Virus record (IMG/VR): IMGVR_UViG_3300037487_002640 | Span: 1-31,909 of that record | DNA: 31,909 nucleotides | Source of the DNA: a virus | Direction: 5' to 3' (one strand) | Shown here: positions 823 through 27,445 of the stretch, one piece after another | How the letters are laid out: each line of letters begins with the position of its first letter | How positions within the stretch are numbered: the first letter of the stretch is position 1 | Position numbers and translations under genes: made by a program | The notes under the pieces: generated by a model | What the model saw: only the letters and a program-made list of their open reading frames with translations | Database searches by the model: none | What the model was told of the DNA's origin: nothing

Positions 823-2873
823 TGGCTTCGACGCTCAAGGGAAAGGTTCCGGCCTACCTCGACCAGTACGCTCGCACGCTCGGCGCCGCCTACCGGGTGG
901 AGGCGATCCGCCGGGATATTGCGAGTGAACAGGATCAAGTCCGGTACATCGACTCCCTGATCAGCCAAGCGCAAAACACCGCCGCTGGGCTCGAGGCCGC
1001 GCTACAGGCGCAGCCGCCCGCCTCGCTTGAAACCGCGACCGCGCTCCTCAAGGAGCAGTATGACGCGGAGAACGCCGGTCGGACCCGGCGAGCAGGCGAG
1101 GGTCTTGCCGCGCGTCGCTCGGTCGAGTTGACTGCGGAGGATAAATCCGCGTTCACCGTCGGCAAGTACCTGGACAAGGAGGCCGTCGCGCTGGCCGCTG
1201 AAACGGCTATCAGGGCCCCAGGGACTACTCCTCAAAAGGCAGCCGCAATCGCTGCTTTCGCTGAGAAGCAGCTGGGCGCCGACTACAAAGACTTGGCCAA
1301 CATCCGGGCGGCCGTCAAGCAGCCGGTGGCGGCGGGCGGTGCGCGCGCCCAGGCGAGGGGCGTCCGCGCCCAGACCCCCGAAGAGGCGGCGCGCCAAGAG
1401 ACCCTCAACCAGCTCTTCGAGTCTACGTACTTCGCCGGTCCGAGCGGAATCGTCGGAGGCTACGAGGGCAAGGCCGTGGCCGACCTGCGGCCCCAGACCA
1501 AGGCGCCGGCCGCGACCGGGTTTGCGACGGCCGAAGACGCCTTCGTGGCTGCGGTCAACTCCCTGGAGAATGGCACAATCAACCGCGAAGACTTCGACAG
1601 CGACGAGGCTTTCGACTACGCTCGGGAGATCTACGCAGAGGCCAAGGTCGCCAAGGCCTTCCGAAACGACCAGCGGACGGCCTTCGAGCCCGCCGTGCTG
1701 AGCGCGCGCAAGCAAGTCGCGGATCTCAAGAAAGAGCGCGAACGTGCCGTCGGAACTACGTACAATGACCCAGGCCAGGAGTCCATCCGGCGGGAGCTCA
1801 TCGCGCGCGGCTACAGGCTCGAAGCGGCGGACTCGAAGGAGGCGTGGAAGAACGCCTACGTACAGTACCAGAAGACCGATGACTACGGCGTTTACATCGG
1901 CGCCCACGAGCGGGTGCGCGACGCGCTCAGCGCGGGCGAAGCACTCTCGCCCAACACCCGGGCCGAGCGCTTGGCGGTGCAGTACACCGGTATGAAGCTG
2001 CGCCGAGGGGATTCCCTTAGCGTGCAAGACCTGAGGGACCAGCTCAAGCGGGTCGGATACGACGGGAAGATTGCGGACGAAGCCGTGGCCTTTGCCATGG
2101 CCTACACCGAGCTGGGCGGCGAGGATCAAAGCCCCGAGCGCCGGGCGAAGCTCCAGGGCCTCGAGGCGGACGCTGAGACCCAGGTCAAGGCGCGCGAGGC
2201 CGAGGCCTCGGCTGCGGACCAAGCGGTGAAGGCCGCGGAGGCAGCTCGAAACCAGCTCGAAGAGGACCTCGCTCGGAGCCGCCCCCCGACGCCCCCGGCT
2301 GCACCCCCGGCGCCCCCGGCAGGTCTTTCGCCGGCGGCTCGCGACGCCGCGTCCGGCGCGCTTGAGGGTGGAACGCTCTCGGGGAGCCGAGGCGACGTGT
2401 TTCCGGGCGAGGAGGAGCTCGTGTTCGGCGGTGGCGTGGTTCCCCCGCTTGAGCCCGCTCCGGCGGCGCTGCCGACCAGGGCCCAGCTCGAGGCCCAGCG
2501 AGCGCAGCTGGAGGCACGCAGGGGGGCCGCGGGAGCCGTAGTGGCGGACCCCGTCATCGGAACCAGGGCTGCAGCTGCCCCGACCGCCCGCACGCAAGAG
2601 CTCCTCGATGTGATCTCCGGCAAGACCCCTGCGCCCCGGGCGGCCCCTGCCCGCGCGCCCGCGCCCGCGCCCGCCCCGAAGGCCCCCGCGCCCGCCCCGA
2701 AGGCGCCCGCCCCCAAGCCCCCGGCGCCCCCGGCCGCACCCCCGGCGGCCCCGGCAAGCAAGGCTGAGCAGGCTCGGCAGCTCAAGGCCCTGCTTTCCGC
2801 TGGCGCCATCCCGAGGGGCACCGATCAGTACAACGCCTTACTGGACCGACTTGACGAGCTGGAGGCTCAATGA
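822..2873 (+). CDS. Putative internal virion (DNA-ejection) protein, 683 aa
   Basis: The ATG at 822 shares its A with the stop codon of the 224-aa gene (TGATG), indicating coupled translation. The 683-aa product is mostly alanine-, glutamate- and arginine-rich predicted helix (residues 1-500), with a coiled-coil-like stretch near 440-490. Then come proline/alanine-rich low-complexity linkers (about 485-505 and 600-650) and a short helical end near 650-683 that closes ...LDRLDELEAQ. No enzyme motif was found. Size, helicity and place between a small and a very large partner resemble the middle internal core protein of podoviruses (T7 gp15 position). I cannot show homology. Confidence 0.5.
   Translation: MASTLKGKVPAYLDQYARTLGAAYRVEAIRRDIASEQDQVRYIDSLISQAQNTAAGLEAALQAQPPASLETATALLKEQYDAENAGRTRRAGEGLAARRSVELTAEDKSAFTVGKYLDKEAVALAAETAIRAPGTTPQKAAAIAAFAEKQLGADYKDLANIRAAVKQPVAAGGARAQARGVRAQTPEEAARQETLNQLFESTYFAGPSGIVGGYEGKAVADLRPQTKAPAATGFATAEDAFVAAVNSLENGTINREDFDSDEAFDYAREIYAEAKVAKAFRNDQRTAFEPAVLSARKQVADLKKERERAVGTTYNDPGQESIRRELIARGYRLEAADSKEAWKNAYVQYQKTDDYGVYIGAHERVRDALSAGEALSPNTRAERLAVQYTGMKLRRGDSLSVQDLRDQLKRVGYDGKIADEAVAFAMAYTELGGEDQSPERRAKLQGLEADAETQVKAREAEASAADQAVKAAEAARNQLEEDLARSRPPTPPAAPPAPPAGLSPAARDAASGALEGGTLSGSRGDVFPGEEELVFGGGVVPPLEPAPAALPTRAQLEAQRAQLEARRGAAGAVVADPVIGTRAAAAPTARTQELLDVISGKTPAPRAAPARAPAPAPAPKAPAPAPKAPAPKPPAPPAAPPAAPASKAEQARQLKALLSAGAIPRGTDQYNALLDRLDELEAQ
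2640..2760 (+). repeat. Proline/alanine low-complexity repeat inside the 683-aa gene
   Basis: A GC-only stretch built from repeats of GCGCCCGCCCCGAAGGC-like units encodes tandem APAPAPK and PAAPPAAP segments. It reads as a flexible extended linker before the last 35 residues. Its low complexity makes replication slippage or assembly error likely, so the exact repeat number is uncertain. Confidence 0.8.
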
Positions 2874-5800
2874 CCCCAGAAGAAATCGAGGCTGCGAGGA
2901 TCGAGCGACGGATCGAGCGCGACCGCGAGGCCCGACGGGCGGAGCGTGCGCTCAAGGCTTTGCCACTGCCCACGGACGTGCCCGCCACCCCGGAGTTTGC
3001 CCCGCTCGAAAGCGAGCCTGAGGCGCAGCTTCGGATGGCCGAGCAGGCCTACGAGGCGGTCAAAGAGCGGCTGCCGGTCGCTGGGCAAGAGGGCGAATCC
3101 GTGGCGCGCGAGCGCGCACGCCTCGAAGCGGAGCGGCTGGGCGCCGTTACGTCGATCCAGCCGGGCAAGGTCAGGGCCTCTACGGAGGTGGGCACCTACA
3201 TCCTGCCGACGTTTCGATCTACCCGCATCCGGCGCGTCGATCCCGATGCAAGGTTTGCTGAGGACCCGGCGACGGCATCGCCTGAGGAGATGAGCGATAA
3301 GCAGCTGGACGTCGCTATTCTCGCGTCCGCAGAGGGCACTCCCCGCCTGCGCGAGTTGACGGTCGAGTCGGACCTGCGCGAGCGCCAGCGCACGAAGGCC
3401 CTGAGGGCGACCCCCACGCCCGAGCTGATCGCTGGCCAGGCGCCGAGGGCCCCTTCGATCGAGGGCGAGCGGCTCTACCTCGACCCGGCCACGGGCAAGC
3501 TGCGTCAACCCACCGCTGGCGAGGAAGTTACCGAGGCTTTCGCGAAGCAGACGGTCATGTCCGAAGCTGCGGCGAAGGCGGCAGCGGACCGGATCTCGAC
3601 GGCCAGCAAGGAGCTTGAACGCCGGGTAGCCGCGGGCGAAGACGTGAGCTGGTACGAGGCTGCTGGTCCGTACTTTTCCGGTATTCTGAGCACGCGGGAC
3701 GAGCTCGGCGCGGGCACCACGGAAACCGAGCTGGGCGCCACGCTGAGGGCCGGGCTCGGTACGCTTTCGGTGCTCGCGGCCGAGGGCTACTTCCGCGGGC
3801 TCGGCTACGAGGTCGACCGAAACGGCGTGCCGAAGGACCCGAATGACTTCGGCCTCGCGGTGGCTCAGGTCCGCGAAAAGCTCGGGCTGACGGAGATCAT
3901 CAACCCGCTGGGCGCCCTCGAGGAGCCGCTGCGCGCTGCGGCGGGCAAGATCTCGCCCGAGCTCGCCCAGCAGGCGGTCGACGCGCTGCGCTCGATCCCG
4001 CAGCTCGCCATCCCGCTCCCTGGCGTGGCCACGCAGGGCACCGAGCAGGGCCCGACCAGCATGGACCCCGAGGGCCGGCGCCGCGTTTCTGGGATCGAGG
4101 TGCCCTCGGTGCTTGAAGACCCCCAGGGTTTCTACGAAGCCGAAACGCGCCGTTTGGCCCGAAGCCTCGCTGGCGGCCGCACCATGGCGGACGAGTTCCT
4201 CGACTCCCCCGCGACCCGCCGGTGGTACGCCAACGTCTACGGCGACCCCGACGCGGCTTTCTGGGCTGGCGCCGTCGGCGACGTGTTCATCCCCGCGGGC
4301 CCTGGCACCCTCGCCCGGGCGGCCAAGGGCCTGGGCAAGGCGGCGGCCGGGTCTAAGGCGGCCGGGGCTGCGGCGGCGGCCACGATCAACGCAGCGGAGG
4401 CCCTGCGAGGCACTCGGGCCGGTGCGCTGGTTAGCCCTGCGGCCGACTTCGCTGCGGCGATCACGAAGGGCGCGCCTTCGGACGGCCGGGTGGTCCGCAG
4501 GGTGGCGGAAAAGTCGATCAACACGATGAACGTGCCCGAGGCCAAGCGGGCCGCTGCGCGCCAAGCGATCGGCGGAACCTCGAACACGATCGACGAAGTC
4601 CGGCAGGATGTGGGCGCCGCCAACATCTTCACGCAGGCGGAGTTTGACTACTTCAACCGGACCTTTATCCGCAATGTTCCGGATGATATGGTCATGGTCA
4701 CCGACCGCGTGGCGGTGCCGAGGGTGCTCGGGCCGAAGTGGAAGGCGGAAGCCCAGCGCGTCCGTCAAGAGGTGCTCCTGCGGCCGGTGGCCGAGGTGCG
4801 CGCCCAGCTCGACGCGGTCAACGCCGCAAGCCCAGCCTACGCGAATGACCTTAGGAACATGTACAGGATCATCGACAACGCGAAAGGGCGCGCGCTAAGC
4901 GTTTCTGAGCGCCAAGCGATCAACAAAGAGTGGGATAAGCTGGTGGCCAAGTTTGGCGCGCCGCTGGATCGAAAGCAAGCAAGCCGTCTATACTTGAGGC
5001 GGCCTAAAGATCTTGATCCTGGCTACACCGACGAAGACTGGACGGATATTCCCGCTGCCTCTGTTGAGCGCCTCCTCAACGACCGGGTCGATTCGGCGCT
5101 GCTCAGGGCGATCCCGCAGGAGGCTCGCCTCGCCACCGACTTGACCTCGGCCCAGGTGGCTGTGCGCGACTACGGGACTGCCCTCGAAAAGCTCTTGGGG
5201 GATAGCCAGACTGCGCGCAGGCTGAGGGCGACGCTGCAGGGGCCCATGTTTGGCGGGCTCCGGCAAGAGTCGATCGCCTCGGCCGCGACCCGGAAGCAGA
5301 TCCAAGCGGCCGGGCAGACGGCGATCCGCGAGGAGGGCGCCGCAATCGCGAGGCGCGCCAAGAGGCTTGGCAGCTTCGAGGCCGCGCTTGACGCCGAGCT
5401 CGCCAAGCGGCTCAACACGGCGGACGTGCCCGCAGCGGAGGCCTGGGACAAAGCCCTGGAGGCCATCTACGGGAACCCCGAGCTCGCGAAGTCGGTCAAG
5501 GCCAGCGCCTTTGCCGACGCCTCCAACCTCCCGGCGGGGATCACCCGCGCTGGAGCCTCCAGGGCGGTCGAGTTTGCGGACTACCCCACCGTCGCCGCGC
5601 TCAAGGCGGTCGACCGGCTCTACGCGAGGTCCGGAAAGTTCCTTACGAACAACTTCACCACCGAGAAACTGTGGGGCGCCTTGCTGCCAAACTACGAGAA
5701 AGCCTTGCTCAAGGTGTTTCTCGAAGAGGGCGTCAAGAAGCGCCTCGCTCAAGCTGCGATGGAGTCCGACGAATACCGCGGGGCCATCGACTTTCTCGCC

Positions 5801-7642
5801 AACCCCACCCTCGACGCGAAGCTCGCGCAGGCGGAAGCGGAGGCCTTCGCCGAGGCGGTCAAGCTCGGCACGCGCGACCCCTCGCTCGCGAAGGTCGAGC
5901 TGCGGGCCACCGTGCCGAACGCCTTCGCAGTGCGCCTCTACGACCCCGCAGCGTCCGACGTCGAGCGAAGGCTGGCCGCAAACGGGGAGGAGCTCTTCGT
6001 GCTGGCTGAGGGCGTTGACCCCCGGCTGCGCGCCGACATCGGCGCCATGGCCAGCCAGGGCCGCGACTGGGCGATTGCGAACCTCGCCAAGAACCTCGAG
6101 AACGCGGTCAAGTACGGGTACTATCTACCGAACATTCCGTACATCGCGATGAAACTGTTCTCGATCCCGATCGTCAGCGTGGTGACCTCCGGTCTTTCCC
6201 GCACGGGCCAGGCCTCGGAGCAGTTCTTCCGCAGGCAGGTCAACGGCGGCGGGCTGCAGCTGCCGGACGGCCGCTACCTCTCCCCCTCCGACCTCGAGTA
6301 CGAGTACCGGTTTCACGGCCTTGGCTTGACCGAGGTCGAGTCCACGCGCGTCGGCGCCCTGGCGGACGACTTGATCCGCGACGGCGAGCGTGCGGCCGCC
6401 CAGGGCCGCGGAGCGGTGCGCGGGGCTGGTCGGCTGGCCTTCGACGTGCTGAGCCCGTTCAGCCGGACGGTGGGCCAGCGGCTCGCGCACTCCCTCGAGC
6501 TCTCTTTCCGGCGTGCGACCTTTGAGGCCCGCCTGCTGGCGGGGGACTCCTTCGAGGTGGCTGCGGAGGCGGCCAGGCGGTCGGTGCTCGACTACAGCGC
6601 GAGCCCGGACTTCGTGCGGAACCTGGTCGGAAAGTACGTGGCCGAGGCCTCGAGCATGTTTCAGCTCTCGGTCGAGCTGCTGCGATTTGGCTCCGAGAAC
6701 ACCGCAGTGTCGCGCGCCTTCGCGAAGGCCAACTCGGAGCGGGCGAAGGCCGAAGACCCCTACGGCGTCTACGGAGATCGAGCACTCAAGTCGCTCGGGA
6801 TCATTGGCGTGGGTGAAAGCACCTACTACCTGCCGTCGATCGGGCGGGTCTACGCGCCCTTCGAGCTGGGGCTGGCGGCCGTCCGGAACGGGAACCAGAT
6901 GGTCGCGGCTGCTGCTCGCGCGTCCGAGGTGGGTGGCGCCGAGGTCGAGGGGGCCCTGCTCAGCTCGGTGGTCGAAGAGGGCCTCGAAGTCACCCGCACC
7001 GGCCTAAACGCCGTGCTGCCCGCCCTTTCTGCTGCGCTTGACGCCGCGATTGAGGCTTCTGGGGCGAGCGACCAGTACCTGAGCGCCGACGTTCCCGACG
7101 CGAAGCCCATGGGGGACGCCCAGGCCTTTTGGGCTGCCGCTGTGATCGCGCACCACGGAGACCTCGACCGCAAGAATGGCGACTGGGACTTCTTTCTCAG
7201 CGTGTTTCAGCCCGAGTTTGTGCTCCCCGGCAAAGACCAAGCCGCCTACCCAGGGACGGCCGATAACCGGCGTCGCTACTGGAAATCCCGGCCTGAGGGG
7301 ATGCCCTACTTGGTCTGGGGCGATGACGCTGAGACTGGAGAGACGATCTACGTTGCGATCCAGCCGAGCAACATTGGCCTGATGAATGTTGGGATCATAA
7401 GGGCAATCCCTGGGTTGAGGCTCAGTGAAACGCTCGGCGTGGTCAGCGCCGCGCTGATCGAGGAGCACGAGAAGGCCTCGGCGCCCCCGGTTGAGCTGCG
7501 TCCTGAGGGCGTGCTCCCCAGGCTTGATCTGGAGGCGCCTGAGCGCGCCCTGGGCTTCGTGCTGGGTCAAGCCCCGTCCGTGGAAGATGAGCGCCGCAGG
7601 CAGGCCCTGGAGCTCGCTGCGGCCCGTGGGAAAACGGAGTAG
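2870..7642 (+). CDS. Giant putative internal virion / DNA-ejection protein, 1590 aa
   Basis: The ATG overlaps the previous stop by four bases (ATGA). At 1590 residues this is the largest gene in the genome. The N-terminal 100 residues are charged and helical. Residues about 475-520 are a small-residue segment rich in A, G and K (GLGKAAAGSKAAGAAAAA). About 1070-1115 is a hydrophobic patch (YYLPNIPYIAMKLFSIPIV) that could touch membrane. The region near 1200-1300 contains SVLDYSASPDFVRN followed by an amphipathic helix, recalling C-terminal parts of large phage polyvalent or internal proteins. I see no transglycosylase signature like that at the N-terminus of T7 gp16. Size and position after two smaller ejection candidates suggest an ejected channel or cargo protein; this is inference. 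Confidence 0.55.
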   Translation: MTPEEIEAARIERRIERDREARRAERALKALPLPTDVPATPEFAPLESEPEAQLRMAEQAYEAVKERLPVAGQEGESVARERARLEAERLGAVTSIQPGKVRASTEVGTYILPTFRSTRIRRVDPDARFAEDPATASPEEMSDKQLDVAILASAEGTPRLRELTVESDLRERQRTKALRATPTPELIAGQAPRAPSIEGERLYLDPATGKLRQPTAGEEVTEAFAKQTVMSEAAAKAAADRISTASKELERRVAAGEDVSWYEAAGPYFSGILSTRDELGAGTTETELGATLRAGLGTLSVLAAEGYFRGLGYEVDRNGVPKDPNDFGLAVAQVREKLGLTEIINPLGALEEPLRAAAGKISPELAQQAVDALRSIPQLAIPLPGVATQGTEQGPTSMDPEGRRRVSGIEVPSVLEDPQGFYEAETRRLARSLAGGRTMADEFLDSPATRRWYANVYGDPDAAFWAGAVGDVFIPAGPGTLARAAKGLGKAAAGSKAAGAAAAATINAAEALRGTRAGALVSPAADFAAAITKGAPSDGRVVRRVAEKSINTMNVPEAKRAAARQAIGGTSNTIDEVRQDVGAANIFTQAEFDYFNRTFIRNVPDDMVMVTDRVAVPRVLGPKWKAEAQRVRQEVLLRPVAEVRAQLDAVNAASPAYANDLRNMYRIIDNAKGRALSVSERQAINKEWDKLVAKFGAPLDRKQASRLYLRRPKDLDPGYTDEDWTDIPAASVERLLNDRVDSALLRAIPQEARLATDLTSAQVAVRDYGTALEKLLGDSQTARRLRATLQGPMFGGLRQESIASAATRKQIQAAGQTAIREEGAAIARRAKRLGSFEAALDAELAKRLNTADVPAAEAWDKALEAIYGNPELAKSVKASAFADASNLPAGITRAGASRAVEFADYPTVAALKAVDRLYARSGKFLTNNFTTEKLWGALLPNYEKALLKVFLEEGVKKRLAQAAMESDEYRGAIDFLANPTLDAKLAQAEAEAFAEAVKLGTRDPSLAKVELRATVPNAFAVRLYDPAASDVERRLAANGEELFVLAEGVDPRLRADIGAMASQGRDWAIANLAKNLENAVKYGYYLPNIPYIAMKLFSIPIVSVVTSGLSRTGQASEQFFRRQVNGGGLQLPDGRYLSPSDLEYEYRFHGLGLTEVESTRVGALADDLIRDGERAAAQGRGAVRGAGRLAFDVLSPFSRTVGQRLAHSLELSFRRATFEARLLAGDSFEVAAEAARRSVLDYSASPDFVRNLVGKYVAEASSMFQLSVELLRFGSENTAVSRAFAKANSERAKAEDPYGVYGDRALKSLGIIGVGESTYYLPSIGRVYAPFELGLAAVRNGNQMVAAAARASEVGGAEVEGALLSSVVEEGLEVTRTGLNAVLPALSAALDAAIEASGASDQYLSADVPDAKPMGDAQAFWAAAVIAHHGDLDRKNGDWDFFLSVFQPEFVLPGKDQAAYPGTADNRRRYWKSRPEGMPYLVWGDDAETGETIYVAIQPSNIGLMNVGIIRAIPGLRLSETLGVVSAALIEEHEKASAPPVELRPEGVLPRLDLEAPERALGFVLGQAPSVEDERRRQALELAAARGKTE

Positions 7643-18785: not shown

Positions 18786-20375
18786 ATGTACGTGCGGAAC
18801 CTTGCTGACGTCTTCGTCCCAGCGCGTGTGCCCAAGGCCAAGCGCGCTGCCGTGGCGAAGATGCTCAACTCGGTCGACAGCTACGCTAAACTACTGAAAG
18901 TGCAGAGCAAAGACTCGAAGAAGATGATCCCCTTCGCTGCCCTGCCCATGCAGCGGAAGATCTTCGACGCGGTGAACGCCGGATCGAAGCGGATCTTGAT
19001 CCTCAAGGCTCGCCAAGTGGCGGCCACCACGGGGTGCAAGCTGGTGCTCCAGTGGCTCGCCTCGACCACGAAGCAAGAGTCGATGCACGCGATCGTCTCG
19101 ATGCGCGATGACTCCGCTACAAGTCTGCTCGCGGAGAACAGGCGCTGGGTGCTTCACCCGCCCGCGATTCTACGTAGAGAGCTTGACGCCAGCGCGAAGG
19201 GGGGGATCACGTTCAAGAGCACGAAGGCCTCGATCAAGGCGTTCACGGCTCGATCCGAGAGCGGCCTGCGGTCGTTCTCCCCGACCGCCGCCCTGGTCTC
19301 GGAGGCCGCCTTCGCGCCCGACCTGGAAGAGGTCCTGGCCCAGGTCGACGCGGCCGTGGGCGAGGGCCTCATCATGGCCGAAAGCACAGCGAATATCCCA
19401 GGCGATTTCTTCAGCAAGCTGGTCATGGGTGCGCCCGAGAACGGCTGGACGCTGTTGACGATGTGGTGGTGGGAACACCCTACGTACTGCGACGGACCGA
19501 GCGAAGTGCCGGAGGACTTCGAGTCCCAGCTGTCGGCCGACGAGAAAGCGCTGCGCACCCTCTACGGGCTTTCCCTCGGCCAGCTCCACTGGCGCCGGCG
19601 GACCGAGGCCCGGCTGGGCTCGGCCCACAAGTTTCGCCGCGAGTACCCCGCGTGCATGGACGACTGCTTCCTCGACCGGAAGGGCGGGTACTTCGAGGAC
19701 GGCCTGCTCGGCGCCATCGACGTGCTTGAGGAGCTGCCCCTGCACGGTGGCCTGGGCCGCGAGCTCGAGGCCCCGCAGACCGAGGACCGCTACGTCATGG
19801 GCGTGGACGTGGGCGGCGGCGTGGGCGGCGACTACAGCACGCTCTGCGTGGTCTCGGTGAGCACCCGGCAGGCGGTCTACGTAGAGCGCAGCAACACCGT
19901 GACGCCCGCCCAGTGGGCCCAGCGCTCGGTGCAGGTGGCCAGTAGGTACAACTCCGCTATGATCCTCGCGGAGAGCAACAACCACGGCCACGCGTTTCTA
20001 CTTGAGATCAACTACTGTAGGTACAGAAACCTATGGCTCGACCCGAAGACCGGAAAGCCGTGGACCACCACCCTCCAGAGCAAGCTCGACGCCTTTGACA
20101 CGCTGCGCGAGAGCCTGCAGCTGATGCGGATTCTCGACCGTACCACTTGGATGGAGCTGCGCTCGCTGACCATCATGCCCGGCAAGGTCGCGCCCGAGGC
20201 CCCGAAGGGGGCGCACGACGACGCGGCCGTCGCCTGCGCGCTGGCCTTCAGGTGTTTACGCGACGTGCCCGCCAGCTGGCGCACCGCCGCGCTAAACTCC
20301 CCCCGAGACCGCGTGACCGACCTCCTGGCCTCGAACCGGGCCCGCAGAATCAAGTCGGGCTCGATGCCCTTCTAA
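18786..20375 (+). CDS. Terminase large subunit (packaging ATPase and nuclease), 529 aa
   Basis: Motor protein that pumps DNA into the prohead and cuts concatemers. The ATPase part holds LKARQVAATT (74-82), in the place of the Walker A arm, LVSEAAF (E173) as Walker B-like, and MAESTAN (197-203) as coupling motif. The RNase H-fold nuclease part shows GVDVGGGVGGDYST (D341, D349), ILAESNN (E396) and HDDAAVACALA (D478/D479). The Walker A analogue lacks the usual G-K-S/T, as in other terminases with a KxRQxG-type loop, but also has Ala where Gly is expected. Length is normal. The start is ATG 18786, following the small subunit. Confidence 0.9.
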   Translation: MYVRNLADVFVPARVPKAKRAAVAKMLNSVDSYAKLLKVQSKDSKKMIPFAALPMQRKIFDAVNAGSKRILILKARQVAATTGCKLVLQWLASTTKQESMHAIVSMRDDSATSLLAENRRWVLHPPAILRRELDASAKGGITFKSTKASIKAFTARSESGLRSFSPTAALVSEAAFAPDLEEVLAQVDAAVGEGLIMAESTANIPGDFFSKLVMGAPENGWTLLTMWWWEHPTYCDGPSEVPEDFESQLSADEKALRTLYGLSLGQLHWRRRTEARLGSAHKFRREYPACMDDCFLDRKGGYFEDGLLGAIDVLEELPLHGGLGRELEAPQTEDRYVMGVDVGGGVGGDYSTLCVVSVSTRQAVYVERSNTVTPAQWAQRSVQVASRYNSAMILAESNNHGHAFLLEINYCRYRNLWLDPKTGKPWTTTLQSKLDAFDTLRESLQLMRILDRTTWMELRSLTIMPGKVAPEAPKGAHDDAAVACALAFRCLRDVPASWRTAALNSPRDRVTDLLASNRARRIKSGSMPF

Positions 20376-20386
20376 GGACAAGACCT

Positions 20387-22093
20387 ATGGCTCTTTCTGC
20401 CCGAGACGTCCGCTCGATTGTCGTCAACCACGACGCCTACTTCGACTCTTGCCGGTCCGACCTGCGCGAGTGCAAAGCGCTGTACATGACGCGTTTCTGG
20501 CGGCACAGGAACGGGGCCACCGCGAGGGCCAACACCACCGAGGTGCCCAAGGGCTACGCCGTGGTCGAGAGCTACCTCGGCTCGCTCTACGCGAAGAACC
20601 CCTCGGTCCGGGTCGAGCCCGACCTCCGCGACCGCGGCAACCCGGCGGTGGCCCAGGCCACGGCCAACCAGTTCCTGCTCGACGTGCGCGAGCAGCTCGA
20701 AGACGCCACGCGCCTCGCCTTGATCTACCCCTGCGCCTTCATCAAGCTCGCCCCTGTGGAAAGCCCTGACCCGCTCAAGCGGGTGAGCTGCGGCGCCCTG
20801 CCGCCCTGGGAAGTGATCGTCGACGCGACCGCGACCAGCTGGGAGGCGCAGCGCTTCGTCGGCCACGTCTACCTCATGCCGCTCAGCGAGGCGTCCGTGC
20901 GTTTCAGCAAGCCCGAGGCTGAGTTCCGCCCTCGGGTTTACACTAAGTGGATCGACGGAGATCAAGTCAAGGTCGGAGGGATGGGCTCCCCGGTGGCCAT
21001 GCCCGAGCGCGACATGCAGTCCGAGACCGATAAGTGGGTGCGCGTCGCGGAGATGTACGACCTCCAGGCCGACAAGCTGCTGGTCTGGTCGCAAGACTAC
21101 GGGGACGGCGACGTCTTCCTCTTCGAGGGAGTCAAGGTGCAGGTCGGCGCCCTCGACCTTGGCGCCACGGCGGACAGCGAACAGGCCGACGCCGAGCTCG
21201 TGCATGAGACCTCGGGGATCCCCTATAAGAGCTCTTCCGGAAGGCCGATCGTCCCTATCATTCCGCTCTACTTCAGCCGCGACCCTGACACCCCGCTCCG
21301 GGGCTACAGCCTGATCGAGCGGAGCCGGGACCAGCTGCGGGAGCTCAACCTGATCCGCACCTACCAGGCCCAGGGCACGCGCCGGATGGCCCGCCAGTGG
21401 ATGGTCCGCGCGGGGTTCCTGAGCCAGGACGCTGCGGCGAAGATCTCTCAGGGGATCGACGGAGAGATGATCGAGGTCGACCTACAGCCGGGTCTCCCGC
21501 TCGAAGGCAACATCACCCCGGTGCCCCAGGCGTCGATGCCGCCGGACATCGAGGCCTACGCCTTGAACGTGCAGTCGGACATCAACGACGCCTCGATGCT
21601 GGCGCCGTTCACGCGGGGCGAGGCTACGGGAACCACCGCTACGGAACAGACCCTACTGGCCGCCTACACCTCCAGCGAGATCGGACGGATGGCTCGGGCC
21701 CGAGACGGCGTGATCACCTCGATCGCCATGGCCTACAACGTGATCTTGAGCGTGGTGCTCGGTGAAGACGCCGAGCCACTGGCCCTTCCCAACCCGGTCG
21801 GCCCCACCATCTTGAGCGCGGACGACTTGACCGGTGACTTCGGCTACTGGGCGGTGGACGCCGGCACCACGCCGATCTCGGACGCCACCAAACAGGCCTC
21901 GCTGGAGCGGCTGGCGCCGATCTTGACCAGCCTGGGCGCCGACCCGAAGGCCGTGCTCGAAGAGATTGTGCGCGCGTTCCAGCTGCCCGCCGACCTGGGT
22001 AAAGTCCTGCCCCCTCCCGCGCCGCCCCCCGGCGCCCCCACCCCCGAGCAAGACGCGGGCGCCCCGCCGCCGCCGCCTATGGAGATGATCTGA
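20387..22093 (+). CDS. Portal protein, 568 aa
   Basis: Dodecameric ring at the capsid vertex through which DNA enters and leaves. I chose ATG 20387 (MALSARDVRSIVVN) because AAGGA lies upstream and the preceding terminase ends at 20375; earlier in-frame starts lie inside that gene. The centre has the wing and stem-like pattern of portals (LIYPCAFIKLAPVES, PWEVIVDATATSWE, LIERSRDQLRELNLIRT). The helix region around YALNVQSDINDASML and TATEQTLLAAYTSSEI is typical of the crown and clip part. The C-terminus is proline-rich (PPPAPPPGAPTP). Gene order, size and these motifs agree. Confidence 0.85.
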   Translation: MALSARDVRSIVVNHDAYFDSCRSDLRECKALYMTRFWRHRNGATARANTTEVPKGYAVVESYLGSLYAKNPSVRVEPDLRDRGNPAVAQATANQFLLDVREQLEDATRLALIYPCAFIKLAPVESPDPLKRVSCGALPPWEVIVDATATSWEAQRFVGHVYLMPLSEASVRFSKPEAEFRPRVYTKWIDGDQVKVGGMGSPVAMPERDMQSETDKWVRVAEMYDLQADKLLVWSQDYGDGDVFLFEGVKVQVGALDLGATADSEQADAELVHETSGIPYKSSSGRPIVPIIPLYFSRDPDTPLRGYSLIERSRDQLRELNLIRTYQAQGTRRMARQWMVRAGFLSQDAAAKISQGIDGEMIEVDLQPGLPLEGNITPVPQASMPPDIEAYALNVQSDINDASMLAPFTRGEATGTTATEQTLLAAYTSSEIGRMARARDGVITSIAMAYNVILSVVLGEDAEPLALPNPVGPTILSADDLTGDFGYWAVDAGTTPISDATKQASLERLAPILTSLGADPKAVLEEIVRAFQLPADLGKVLPPPAPPPGAPTPEQDAGAPPPPPMEMI

Positions 22094-22617
22094 TGCCCCT
22101 CAAGTTTGGCAAGAAAGACGTGCCTGAAGAGCTCGCAATGGAAACCGACGCCATGGACGACGCCGTCGGTGAAGAGCTGGCTGGCATGACCCCGAAGCCC
22201 GACCGCCCCTACAGCGCGAAGGTTATGACCGCGCTGGGTAAGGCGATCTCCGCAGTGCTCAACGTCATGGGCGTCGAGGCCGAGGCCGAGGCCTACACCG
22301 AGCCCGTGCCCGAGCTCGACCCGGAGGAGGTGCGGTTCCTGTCGATGTTGACCGCCGCGGCGGCCGACTACGGGAAGCCCCTTCCGGTGACCCCCGACAA
22401 GATCATGGGCGACTCTGAGCTGACCTCGATCACCGCCGCCCTCATGGAGCTGGCGAAGGACGAAGGCTTCCGGGAGTTCCTCGGCGAGGTCGAGCCCGGC
22501 GAAGAGGAGGAGGGCATGATGGAGGAGCCCTCGGCCAAGATGAAGCCTAAGGGCAAGACCGGAATGGGTGAGAGTGAGCCCACCGACGACTTCTTCGCAG
22601 GCCGCATGCGCAAGTGA
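22093..22617 (+). CDS. Acidic head-module protein of unknown function, 174 aa
   Basis: The start shares a base with the portal stop (TGATG). The 174-aa product is acidic, with a helical middle (SAKVMTALGKAISAVLN), a second helical part (ELTSITAALMELAKDE), a glutamate-rich stretch near 140-150 and a basic end FFAGRMRK. No enzyme motif is visible. Placement between portal and scaffold suggests a head-assembly role such as a portal chaperone or scaffold partner; this is inferred from context only. Confidence 0.55.
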   Translation: MPLKFGKKDVPEELAMETDAMDDAVGEELAGMTPKPDRPYSAKVMTALGKAISAVLNVMGVEAEAEAYTEPVPELDPEEVRFLSMLTAAAADYGKPLPVTPDKIMGDSELTSITAALMELAKDEGFREFLGEVEPGEEEEGMMEEPSAKMKPKGKTGMGESEPTDDFFAGRMRK

Positions 22618-22625
22618 GGTAGCTG

Positions 22626-23225
22626 ATGGCGTTTGGGTTCAGCACGTCCCTGGTCAACAAAGCAAAGGGAATCCTCGGCTCGACCATTGTCGCGGCCGAG
22701 GGCGCCCTCAGCAAGATCAAGCGGATCTTCGGGCTGCCGTCCGACGCCGTCAAGCAAGGCACGGTGGTCATCGGCCGCCAGTTGACCCGCACGGGCACGG
22801 GGCGGGGCGAGGTCAACGCGATCCTCAGCGACGCGATCAAGTTCCGCCAGCCCGTGCGCTTCGTCTACAATGATAAGTGGGTTCCAGCGGACCCTGCCGA
22901 CCAGCTGGGGGCTAAGGGAACACGCGTAGGCGACCCCTGCGCGATGTGGATCGGATTCAACGGCGGCCAGTACCTCCACCTTTACATCGATCCTGAGAGC
23001 GTTTCGCTGAGTAACACCCTCGTCCGTGCGGGTAAGCGGTCGAGTGGCGGCGAAAAGCCAGGCTGGCGCACCTTCCTCGTTGAGCGCATCGGCTTCATTG
23101 AGCTGCTGTCCAACGGGGTTGACGCTAAGGGAAAGCCCATACCCTTCACCACGCCACCTGGGTGGAACCCAGGCTGGTACTCACGCAAAGCCGGGTACGT
23201 GCTACGCATGCTCGGCGACAAATAA
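22626..23225 (+). CDS. WYL-like domain protein in the head module, 199 aa
   Basis: Residues 1-60 are helical, with two hydrophobic stretches (KAKGILGSTIVAAEGALS). Residues about 69-160 follow the WYL-domain pattern: AIKFRQPVRFVYNDKW, then RVGDPCAMWIGFNGGQYLHLYID (the [W/Q]-Y-L segment), then WRTFLVERIGFIEL, where WYL proteins have F-x-L-x-R-I. I see no winged-helix at the N-terminus, unlike the bacterial WYL regulators. The start is ATG 22626 after GAGGT. The neighbours are head proteins. It might be a regulator, a ligand sensor, or a structural protein with a related SH3-like fold. The WYL assignment is my own reading and needs a profile search. Confidence 0.45.
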   Translation: MAFGFSTSLVNKAKGILGSTIVAAEGALSKIKRIFGLPSDAVKQGTVVIGRQLTRTGTGRGEVNAILSDAIKFRQPVRFVYNDKWVPADPADQLGAKGTRVGDPCAMWIGFNGGQYLHLYIDPESVSLSNTLVRAGKRSSGGEKPGWRTFLVERIGFIELLSNGVDAKGKPIPFTTPPGWNPGWYSRKAGYVLRMLGDK

Positions 23226-23235
23226 GGGAATCACC

Positions 23236-24156
23236 ATGCTTTTGGCGAACACCCCTGCAGCTGCGGCTGCACCGGCTGACTCCATGACCGCCTCCACTTC
23301 AAGCGCCCCCGGCACCTCGCTCGCCGAGACCGTGCTGGCGCAGGTCCAGGCGGTCGACGCTGCGGCCAAGGGGGCGGCCAAGCCCGCTCCCTCGACGAAG
23401 GCCAAGGCGCCGGCTCCGGCCAGCGCCCAGCCCGCCACGGGGACTCCGCAGTCCGAGGCCCAGGTGGCTTCGGACGCGGCCGACGCGATCGGCGACGTCA
23501 AGTCCGGCAAGCTCTCTTGGAACGACGCGCTCAAGCGGGTTCCGCCCGACGTGGCCTCGCTCATGAGGTCGATGCAGGCGGACTACACGCGCAAGACCCA
23601 AGAGCTCAGCCGGGCGCAGAAAGAGGCCCTTGCGGAGCGCGAGAGCCTCCTCAAGGGCGCCGCTGCGCTCAAGACGAAAGAGCTGCCCGAGTATGATCCC
23701 TTCAACGAAAGCACCGTACAAGCCCGTATCGAGAACGAAGTCTCGCGGCGACTGGCCGAGGTGCTCAAGCCGATGCAGGACGAGTACGAAATCAAGGCCG
23801 CCGAGGATCAGTACAACTCCTTCCTCGGTGAAAACCCTGACTTCAAGAGCGATGCCGGGCTCCGGTCCGAGGTGCAGCGCTTGCTCGAGAGCAACCCGTC
23901 GCTCGACCTCGAAACGGCCTACTGGGCCGCGAAGGGGCGTGGCGCGAAGCTCGCTGCAGCGAAGGCGGCGGCCGACGCGGAGGCCGAGGCCAAGACCGGC
24001 TCGGCGAGGCGGCGGGCCAACCAGGCCGCGGCCAGCACCGCGACCTCCCCGGCGCGCCGAGGCCCCGTCGCGGACGTGGCCACGGGCGGCAAGGTGGGGC
24101 GCACCACCACCAACGAGTCGATCCTTGCTATGGCCCGAGCGCGAATGGGCCAGTAG
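23236..24156 (+). CDS. Scaffolding protein, 306 aa
   Basis: Guides assembly of the prohead and is removed before packaging. I chose ATG 23236 (MLLANTPAAAAAP) because AAGGGA lies upstream, just after the WYL-like gene stop. The N-terminal 80 residues are low-complexity A/P/S/T. Residues about 85-235 are a charged coiled coil (MQADYTRKTQELSRAQ, EVSRRLAEVLKPMQDEY). The C-terminus is basic (RRRANQ, SPARRGP), as expected for the capsid-binding end. It sits directly before the major capsid gene, the standard order. No protease domain is seen. Confidence 0.8.
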   Translation: MLLANTPAAAAAPADSMTASTSSAPGTSLAETVLAQVQAVDAAAKGAAKPAPSTKAKAPAPASAQPATGTPQSEAQVASDAADAIGDVKSGKLSWNDALKRVPPDVASLMRSMQADYTRKTQELSRAQKEALAERESLLKGAAALKTKELPEYDPFNESTVQARIENEVSRRLAEVLKPMQDEYEIKAAEDQYNSFLGENPDFKSDAGLRSEVQRLLESNPSLDLETAYWAAKGRGAKLAAAKAAADAEAEAKTGSARRRANQAAASTATSPARRGPVADVATGGKVGRTTTNESILAMARARMGQ

Positions 24157-24279: not shown

Positions 24280-25314
24280 ATGCCCACGAACAGCCTTATC
24301 ACGACCACGCTTCAGCTCCTCCGGGACAAGCTGATCGACAACAGCTTCATCTCCCACCCCCTGATCCGGGCCATCGAAAGCAAGGGTCGCCTCCGTAAGG
24401 TTACGGGTGGCCTGCGCATCGAGCAGCCCGTCATCTTCGGCGAGCACTCCTCGATCACCGAGTTCAGCAACGGCTTCGAGCCGATGAACATGGCGATCAA
24501 GGACCCTTTCTACGTGGCGAAGTTCGAGTGGGCCAACTTCGCCCAGCCGATCGTCATCAACCAGATCGAGCAGCTCGCCAACCGCGGAGACCTCGCGGTG
24601 GTCAGCGTTCTCGAGAGCAAGATGGCCAACGTCATGTTGGCCCTGCGCAAGCAGGTGACCCAGCAGATCATCCGCGGCGACTCGAGCAAGATCACCCAGC
24701 TCCAGACCCTCAACGGAAACGGCACCAACCTGGTGGCCCCCAACACCACCGGCTGGCTCGAGGGCGTGGCCTCGACCGCGCAGACCAACACGGTCGGCGG
24801 CCTGAGCAAGACCACCTTCCGCAGCCTCAACTGGTTCAACCAGTTCCAGGACGCGGGCGGCAGCTTGGCGATCTCGGACCTGGACCAGCTGTTCATCAAC
24901 GCGGAGATCTACAACCCGAGCGGCGCCACCCCCGACATCTTGCTGATGTCGCCCAAGTGCTACGCCGCGTTCCTGGCCCTCTTGGACCAGCGGATTCAGT
25001 ACATCACCGTGGCCGACCGCGACGGCCTCAACAGCAAGATGGTCGCCACCTACCGGGGCGCCCAGGTCTACGTCGACCCGAACCTCGGCTTCACCGCCTC
25101 GGCTTCGTCCGGCATGGGCGCGAAGGCGGTTTCGGCCTACCTGCTCGCCTCCGACCAGTTCGAGCTCTACGCCGACACCGACGGCTGGTTCGACATTGGC
25201 GAGATGCAGCCCGTTCCCGGCACGATCACCTCCGCTGCCACCGTGCTTTGCCGGATGCAGCTGGTGACCGGCCACCTCGCGAGCCACTCCATCCTCATCG
25301 ACGCGGAGGCCTGA
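24280..25314 (+). CDS. Major capsid protein (HK97-like fold), 344 aa
   Basis: Main shell protein. It starts at ATG 24280 behind a near-consensus AAAGGAGG, the strongest ribosome site in the window, as fits the most abundant product. The N-terminal helix (LITTTLQLLRDKLIDN) is followed by an E-loop-like part (GRLRKVTGGLRIEQPVIFGE) and a spine-helix region (LAVVSVLESKMANVMLALRKQ). The A-domain-like C-terminus (ILLMSPKCYAAFLALLDQR; MQPVPGTITSAATVLCRMQL) is typical of phage major capsid proteins of about 340 aa. There is no N-terminal delta domain, so a separate scaffold (the upstream gene) is needed. Confidence 0.9.
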   Translation: MPTNSLITTTLQLLRDKLIDNSFISHPLIRAIESKGRLRKVTGGLRIEQPVIFGEHSSITEFSNGFEPMNMAIKDPFYVAKFEWANFAQPIVINQIEQLANRGDLAVVSVLESKMANVMLALRKQVTQQIIRGDSSKITQLQTLNGNGTNLVAPNTTGWLEGVASTAQTNTVGGLSKTTFRSLNWFNQFQDAGGSLAISDLDQLFINAEIYNPSGATPDILLMSPKCYAAFLALLDQRIQYITVADRDGLNSKMVATYRGAQVYVDPNLGFTASASSGMGAKAVSAYLLASDQFELYADTDGWFDIGEMQPVPGTITSAATVLCRMQLVTGHLASHSILIDAEA

Positions 25315-26014: not shown

Positions 26015-26055
26015 AGGCCCTCTCCACCGGCTAAGATGCTGGTGCGGGAGGGCCT
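26015..26055 (+). terminator. Hairpin between decoration and adaptor genes
   Basis: AGGCCCTC at 26015-26022 pairs with GAGGGCCT at 26048-26055. The inner CCACC/GGTG pairs extend the stem. No U tract follows (CTCGCTAAGG). It could partly terminate or process mRNA so that capsid and decoration genes are expressed more strongly than the tail genes. Confidence 0.45.
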
Positions 26056-26074
26056 CTCGCTAAGGGGAGCACCG

Positions 26075-27445
26075 ATGAATCTCGGCCAGATCATTGACTA
26101 CATTGGGAACCTGTTGGACTATGATCCGACGAACGCAACCTATAGGGATCAACTGGTCAACATCGTGAATGACGCGCAGACGCGTGTTCTGAGCGACCGG
26201 CCGTGGGACTTTGTTCTGAGGGAAAGGGCTCTACGTGTTTGGACGGACCGGACCATCGCGGTGGGCGTGGTCAACGGCTCGGGCACGGTTACGGGCGGAC
26301 CCTTTCCGTTCTCCACCTCGGCGGTCAAGCCCGGCTCGGACCTCGAGGGCGCGCAGGTGTTCATCACCGACTCGAACGGGAACACCTTTCAGCACGTCAT
26401 TTCGTTCGTCGCAGCGTCCAACCAGCTGTTCTTGGACCGCGACTTCCTCGGCGCCTCGGGCTCCTACACCGCGACGGTGCAGCGCCGGGAGGTGTTCCTG
26501 CCGAGCGACTTCATGGCGGTGCAGTCCGTGGTTGACCCCTCGGTCGGGGTTCCGGTCAACACCCTGGCCTTGACCAAGTATGAGCGCGACGGCGCCAACC
26601 TCGACCGCGAGCTCCTCGGACGCATGGAGTTCTACCTGCCCAGCCAGGGGCGCAGCTCCAGGGCGCCTGTGACCGCCAGGGGCGTGACCGTGGCTACGGT
26701 GGGCGCAGGCCAGGGCATCCGCACCGTCAACGTCTACATGATCAACGTGGCCGCCCCGCTGGGCGTCAACGCGCAGGTCTACCCGCCCGAGGTCAGCGAC
26801 GGCTTCGAGTCGGCTTTCAGCGCGGTCGCGACCTTCGAGCTCAGCGACACCCAGACGCTGCGGTTCACCCCTGAGGTGGTGCCCAGCACTACCGGACTTT
26901 ACCGTAGGTACTACTTCACCTGCCCCACCGCCGGCATCTTGGCGCCGCTGCGCGTGCGGTCGGGCGGTGGCCAGGGCTTTGCCGCCCTCGGCGTTGACAC
27001 CGTGGCGCCGACCGGAACCGTGACGCTGGCCCCCGACCTGTCGCTGGCCACGCTTGAAGGCCAGAGCTTCCAGTCGACTGCGATCCGCTACCGGTCGAAC
27101 AACAGCGCCCGATACCAGTCGATCCAGCTCTACCCGCACCCGAGCGGCGACCAGAACATCGAGGTGCGCGCCATTGCCGCGGCTCCGCGTTTGTACGAAG
27201 ACCAAGACGCGCCGATCTTGCCCCACGCCTACTGCGAGATCTTGGCCCTGGCCGCGCTCGAAAACCTCTCGATCAAGCTCAACAACCCGGCGCTCGGCGA
27301 GGTCTACTCGCGAAAGAAAGCGGTCATGTTCCAGGGGATGGAGTCCGCCTACCTCAAGCTGGCGGCGCGCCGCCTGGTCCGCGGTGGCGGCGTGGCCGAG
27401 CTCTACTCCCCGAACCCGTTTGGGCCCCTCCGGTTCACCCCGTAA
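26075..27445 (+). CDS. Head-tail adaptor protein with inserted beta domain, 456 aa
   Basis: Connects portal to tail nozzle. I chose ATG 26075 (MNLGQIIDYIGNLLDYDP), behind AAGGGGAG. The N-terminal helices (YRDQLVNIVNDAQTRVLSD, RPWDFVLRER) and C-terminal helices (PHAYCEILALAALENLSIK, GEVYSRKKAVMFQGM) form the four-helix core of gp11/adaptor-like proteins in short-tailed phages. The middle 200 or more residues are beta-rich and form a large insertion, which explains the unusual length (adaptors are often about 200 aa). The order adaptor then nozzle matches T7-type tails. Confidence 0.75.
   Translation: MNLGQIIDYIGNLLDYDPTNATYRDQLVNIVNDAQTRVLSDRPWDFVLRERALRVWTDRTIAVGVVNGSGTVTGGPFPFSTSAVKPGSDLEGAQVFITDSNGNTFQHVISFVAASNQLFLDRDFLGASGSYTATVQRREVFLPSDFMAVQSVVDPSVGVPVNTLALTKYERDGANLDRELLGRMEFYLPSQGRSSRAPVTARGVTVATVGAGQGIRTVNVYMINVAAPLGVNAQVYPPEVSDGFESAFSAVATFELSDTQTLRFTPEVVPSTTGLYRRYYFTCPTAGILAPLRVRSGGGQGFAALGVDTVAPTGTVTLAPDLSLATLEGQSFQSTAIRYRSNNSARYQSIQLYPHPSGDQNIEVRAIAAAPRLYEDQDAPILPHAYCEILALAALENLSIKLNNPALGEVYSRKKAVMFQGMESAYLKLAARRLVRGGGVAELYSPNPFGPLRFTP

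Follow-up and report, generated by a model that had tools for sequence, protein, structure and literature searches.

In bacteria, the WYL domain is familiar as the sensing part of defence and DNA-damage regulators. Makarova et al. (PMC4012209) characterised it as an SH3 barrel of the Sm-like type in which four basic residues are conserved, and suggested that ring assemblies are possible. A study of PafBC (PMC11804915) names PafB residues R181, Y196, R204, R208, R211 and R214 as either needed to bind ssDNA or implicated in doing so. WYL1, an accessory of Cas13d systems, has been reported to bind ssRNA (PMC9122601, PMC11804915); likened to the protein described here by description only, it is also a WYL protein outside transcription regulation, though it is a CRISPR accessory and not a phage gene. 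A Limnohabitans phage carries a WYL-annotated gene, listed among auxiliary metabolic genes (PMC12195039), and the open-licence PMC literature yielded no description of a WYL protein belonging to a phage head module.

The window is the whole stretch of viral DNA analysed here, 31,909 nucleotides, positions 1 to 31,909 of IMG/VR record IMGVR_UViG_3300037487_002640, and the features relevant to this analysis are listed in Table 1. Because a predicted WYL fold is encoded in it between the portal and capsid genes, unaccompanied by a DNA-binding regulator domain, this fold has probably been co-opted for assembling the head or packaging DNA.

Table 1. Genes of the head operon and segments of the WYL-domain protein in the window
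Feature	Position	Strand	Description
Terminase large subunit	18786..20375	+	PHROG 2, E 8e-24; Pfam Terminase_6C
Portal protein	20387..22093	+	PHROG 156, E 1e-8; start read from sequence
Acidic protein	22093..22617	+	174 aa, pI 4.3; start overlaps portal stop codon
WYL-domain protein	22626..23225	+	199 aa, pI about 10; ORF, Pfam WYL in relatives, AlphaFold and Foldseek
Basic N-terminal segment, residues 1-52	22626..22781	+	one low-confidence predicted helix, no HTH
WYL core, about residues 59-161	22800..23108	+	motifs AI-VRFVY, RVxxP, YLHLY, WRTFxxxRI
Tail motif PGWNPGWY, residues 178-185	23157..23181	+	kept across the relatives
Probable scaffold	23236..24156	+	labelled by position only, because no profile matched
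Major capsid protein	24280..25314	+	PHROG 9953, E 1.3e-22

Assignment of the WYL fold and its ligand groove

The open reading frame is intact, running from ATG to TAA with GAGG ahead of the start, and the motif patterns noted in an earlier reading are all present in it (AI-KFRQP-VRFVY, RVGDPCAMW, QYLHLY and WRTFLVERI). Taken alone, the window protein had no match in Pfam, in PHROGs or among PDB sequences. Relatives were the route to a family assignment; 28 came from viral contigs and further ones were recruited via an alignment search, and the set was reduced to 34 non-redundant members. Across these, residues V77, F79, Y81, R100, P104, A106, Y116, L117, H118, Y120, W147, R148, T149, F150 and R154 do not vary and, given this invariance and the low dN/dS reported below, the motifs exceed what is expected by chance.

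Pfam WYL (PF13280) was matched by 32 of the 34 members at E <= 1, the best at E 4.1e-5. Two, L131 (26.2 bits) and L058 (23.9 bits), lie above the curated cut-off of 21.8 bits and match nearly the full model of 70 positions, most of the others score slightly under the cut-off, and four reversed control sequences gave no PF13280 match. The core of the relatives aligns with positions 2-70 of the model and the modelled helix and strands are WYL-like. A PDB hmmsearch with the first family alignment returned no matches, and scans of the divergent alignment against NCBIfam and PHROGs gave isolated weak matches only; with hhalign, six plasmid or E. coli WYL regulators aligned collinearly and weakly (probability 2.8, P 0.016).

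The first AlphaFold model reached a pLDDT of 61.5 overall and about 85 in the core. When it was compared to the PDB using Foldseek, ranks 1-11 were all occupied by WYL proteins (PafBC, BrxR and DriD), with an E value of 1.3e-3 for the best match and a probability of 1.00 for most of the eleven, and CapW was found at ranks 14 and 22. The TM-scores were low (0.33-0.37 on the query), which is to be expected when the match covers a single small domain of a longer chain and the first model is weak. A second model, built from 34 rows, had a pLDDT of 75.6, rising to 90-97 through most of the core and falling to 46-61 in the N-terminal segment. It was compared to the viral structure library only, where the top match was an uncharacterised Ackermannviridae protein of 154 aa (BFVD A0A8S5VTW8, Ackermannviridae sp.; E 1.3e-5, 20 % identity) and a protein named "WYL domain containing" was also among the best.

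Hence, on the profiles of its relatives and its predicted structure, the window protein is assigned as a predicted WYL (Sm/SH3-like) barrel. The first-pass annotation, which had proposed a WYL domain from the motifs and named profile and fold searches as the check, is borne out by matches obtained via the relatives and the AlphaFold model, not from the window sequence alone. The protein shares with the PF13280 family the motif order, the predicted fold, a basic groove that appears largely kept and, in two relatives, a score over the cut-off, but differs in that it has no profile match itself, the WYL triplet varies in its first letter and one groove arginine is lost. The best structural match is to the WYL core of the HTH-WYL-WCX regulators (PafBC, BrxR, DriD, CapW), whereas the window protein has neither winged helix nor WCX and is encoded in a phage late head operon.

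The groove was compared to that of PafB using R-E-V-E-P, WYL and then RVFRLSR as register landmarks in the PafBC sequence. The register was read from alignments, not from structural superposition, and combines an Arthrobacter chain with Mycobacterium numbering; in it, PafB R181, Y196, R208 and R214 are equivalent to R100, Y116, R148 and R154 of the window protein. In the divergent set, the three arginines are invariant and Y116 is nearly so. The equivalent of R211 is residue 151, a position occupied by Leu or Ile in 34/34 members, and PafB-like binding of ssDNA is for this reason not assured. PafB R204 falls in an unalignable loop.

The C-terminus of the protein in the window (23170-23222, GWYSRKAGYVLRMLGDK) is one residue longer than in the relatives and off their GWYxxVGxP pattern, differing even from that of L001, which is 84 % identical.

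Place of the gene in the head operon

The gene had been described earlier as lying inside the head module, between an acidic protein and the scaffold, and comparison of loci upheld this location. Using capsid proteins as queries, independent of the WYL gene, 67 distinct loci were found in which the sequence upstream of the capsid gene extends for 1.8 kb or more. They all belong to one related group, and each of the 67 has the WYL gene 894-1077 nt upstream of the gene for the major capsid protein and in the same orientation. The two genes are also on the same strand in the 230 loci that have both. The acidic gene neighbours the WYL gene in 91/93 loci, a gene in the scaffold position separates it from the capsid gene in 89/93, and the order TerL-portal-acidic-WYL-scaffold-capsid is found in nearly all loci. 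Sequence identity of the WYL gene declines about as fast as that of the other head genes, and no fusion of the WYL protein to neighbouring genes or to other head proteins was found among the loci. The WYL gene is a core gene of the head operon in the sampled group, though operon position alone is no proof of a structural protein.

For about 80 of 94 loci, the WYL start codon is no more than 10 nt from the stop codon of the acidic gene, and the two often form TGATG or TAATG, a pattern that is typical of translational coupling. Between the body of the acidic gene and the scaffold gene, no promoter-like or terminator-like site was found on the coding strand. The median pI of the protein and its relatives is 10.5, the N-terminal segment carries a net charge of +4 to +8 in the 34 members, and the acidic neighbour has a pI of 4.3; the two proteins may interact. 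dN/dS for the WYL gene is 0.04-0.15, indicating purifying selection; between the window and L001, its value of 0.13 compares with higher ones of 0.28 for the scaffold gene and 0.36 for the acidic gene.

Some further features of these loci were recorded. The acidic protein (22093-22617) ends in FFAGRMRK, and a CGCATGCG-like stretch encoding RMR precedes the WYL start codon in many relatives, which suggests a conserved C-terminal motif of the acidic protein. The window also includes a 1590-aa ORF (2870-7642) with no match in Pfam or PHROGs, and in IMGVR_UViG_3300021381_000026 (L037 7713-8213, L008 5986-6486) a truncated relative of this ORF stands immediately before the WYL gene, with the terminase, portal and acidic genes absent due to an assembly join or a deletion. 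Downstream of the capsid gene, a 469-aa protein (26036-27445) is a candidate tail adaptor, matching the SU10 adaptor PF24175 at 26.9 of 27 bits, under the Pfam cut-off.

Role of the protein

As stated in the first-pass annotation, the protein has no winged helix: the approximately 52 residues before the core include a single low-confidence helix and gave no HTH profile match. A WCX dimerisation domain was also not found, as the about 38 residues that follow the core are too few for one. The same annotation had left open whether a WYL fold had been placed in the virion or a regulator was hidden in the late operon. A role in morphogenesis is favoured, though not decisively, because the gene occupies a fixed place in every sampled relative, is spaced as if coupled to the acidic gene and is under purifying selection, and because the protein lacks HTH and WCX domains.

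We therefore consider, with a probability of about 0.6, that the gene, from an uncultured podovirus-like group, encodes a late protein for morphogenesis or packaging that is built around a WYL/Sm-like barrel. It would probably be made together with the acidic protein encoded immediately before it, and its most likely function is to help assemble the head or package the genome close to the portal, where the apparently retained basic groove probably binds either nucleic acid or the coupled acidic partner; a procapsid or virion role and the identity of the ligand are what we infer. As a core head-operon gene in a widespread virus group, the WYL gene would extend the fold to phage assembly and provide a testable nucleic-acid-binding candidate in packaging, and it is a caution against labelling such phage WYL genes transcription regulators. 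A more specific and tentative version is that the barrel was turned into a part of the packaging or portal machinery, possibly as an Sm-type ring contacting DNA and, if true, WYL would be a structural nucleic-acid module beyond regulation and defence.

SH3-like barrels are common in head-tail connectors, and this together with the loss of one groove arginine would suit a purely structural small barrel, either a head-completion protein or a portal-associated adaptor, that inherited its likeness to WYL and has lost ligand binding. However, the three other groove arginines are invariant and the best fold matches are WYL proteins rather than connectors, making this improbable. Genes for anti-defence proteins are usually early and variable between relatives, whereas the WYL gene is universal in the sampled group, is in the late operon and is conserved about like the other head genes. 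A protein, made late or delivered, that mimics host WYL regulators of the BrxR/CapW type or soaks up their nucleic-acid ligand is the least probable of the readings considered; BREX and CBASS are under WYL regulators (PMC9122601, PMC9122588) and the fold, as predicted, is similar to BrxR and less strongly to CapW, but there is no WCX domain for dimerising with the host regulators.

A regulator hidden in the operon is also less likely than a role in morphogenesis or packaging. It would be an HTH-less WYL sensor of a nucleic acid or nucleotide signal, timing late events via a partner, e.g. RNA polymerase or another DNA-binding protein. Though most of the WYL proteins that have been studied well are regulators (PMC9122601, PMC11804915) and the groove residues appear largely kept, the protein has neither HTH nor WCX and its gene, which all sampled genomes carry at the same fixed place in the head operon, has no promoter-like site of its own, and we regard this role as unlikely.

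Distribution and candidate relatives

The gene belongs to an uncultured aquatic, podovirus-like phage group and is found in every genome checked. Judged by capsid or terminase, identity to the closest named phages is only about 22-28 %. No homologue was found in the cultured phage collection (one chance-level match) or, in a single scan, in bacterial genome contigs, and profile scans with PHROGs and NCBIfam did not link the protein to any known family of phage head, connector or packaging proteins. The T4 DNA-end protector gp2 was examined as a possible relative and rejected, since hhalign (A2 versus gp2) gave a probability of 0.2 with no meaningful alignment; a weak fold match to a gp2 relative, at rank 4 with the first model, was only at rank 18 with the better one. 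Roseobacter phage CRP-7, Manatee Spring phage MW202489 and a Bradyrhizobium phage were likewise rejected as carriers of a homologue at this place, as there was no profile match, and the translated small genes between portal and capsid in these phages look different.

Two small phage proteins, A0A6J5RNM4 and TP-84 AQY55055 (131 aa), are alike in having a predicted WYL-like fold, but no sequence relation to them was found and the TP-84 gene is outside the head module. In Geobacillus phage TP-84 (L100 27713-28108), the end of a 131-aa hypothetical protein, NGDYFIKGYDDEGMWRTIDVDSI, resembles the second half of a WYL domain, and the TP-84 entry of the same length (131 aa) was matched by Foldseek with a probability of 1.00.
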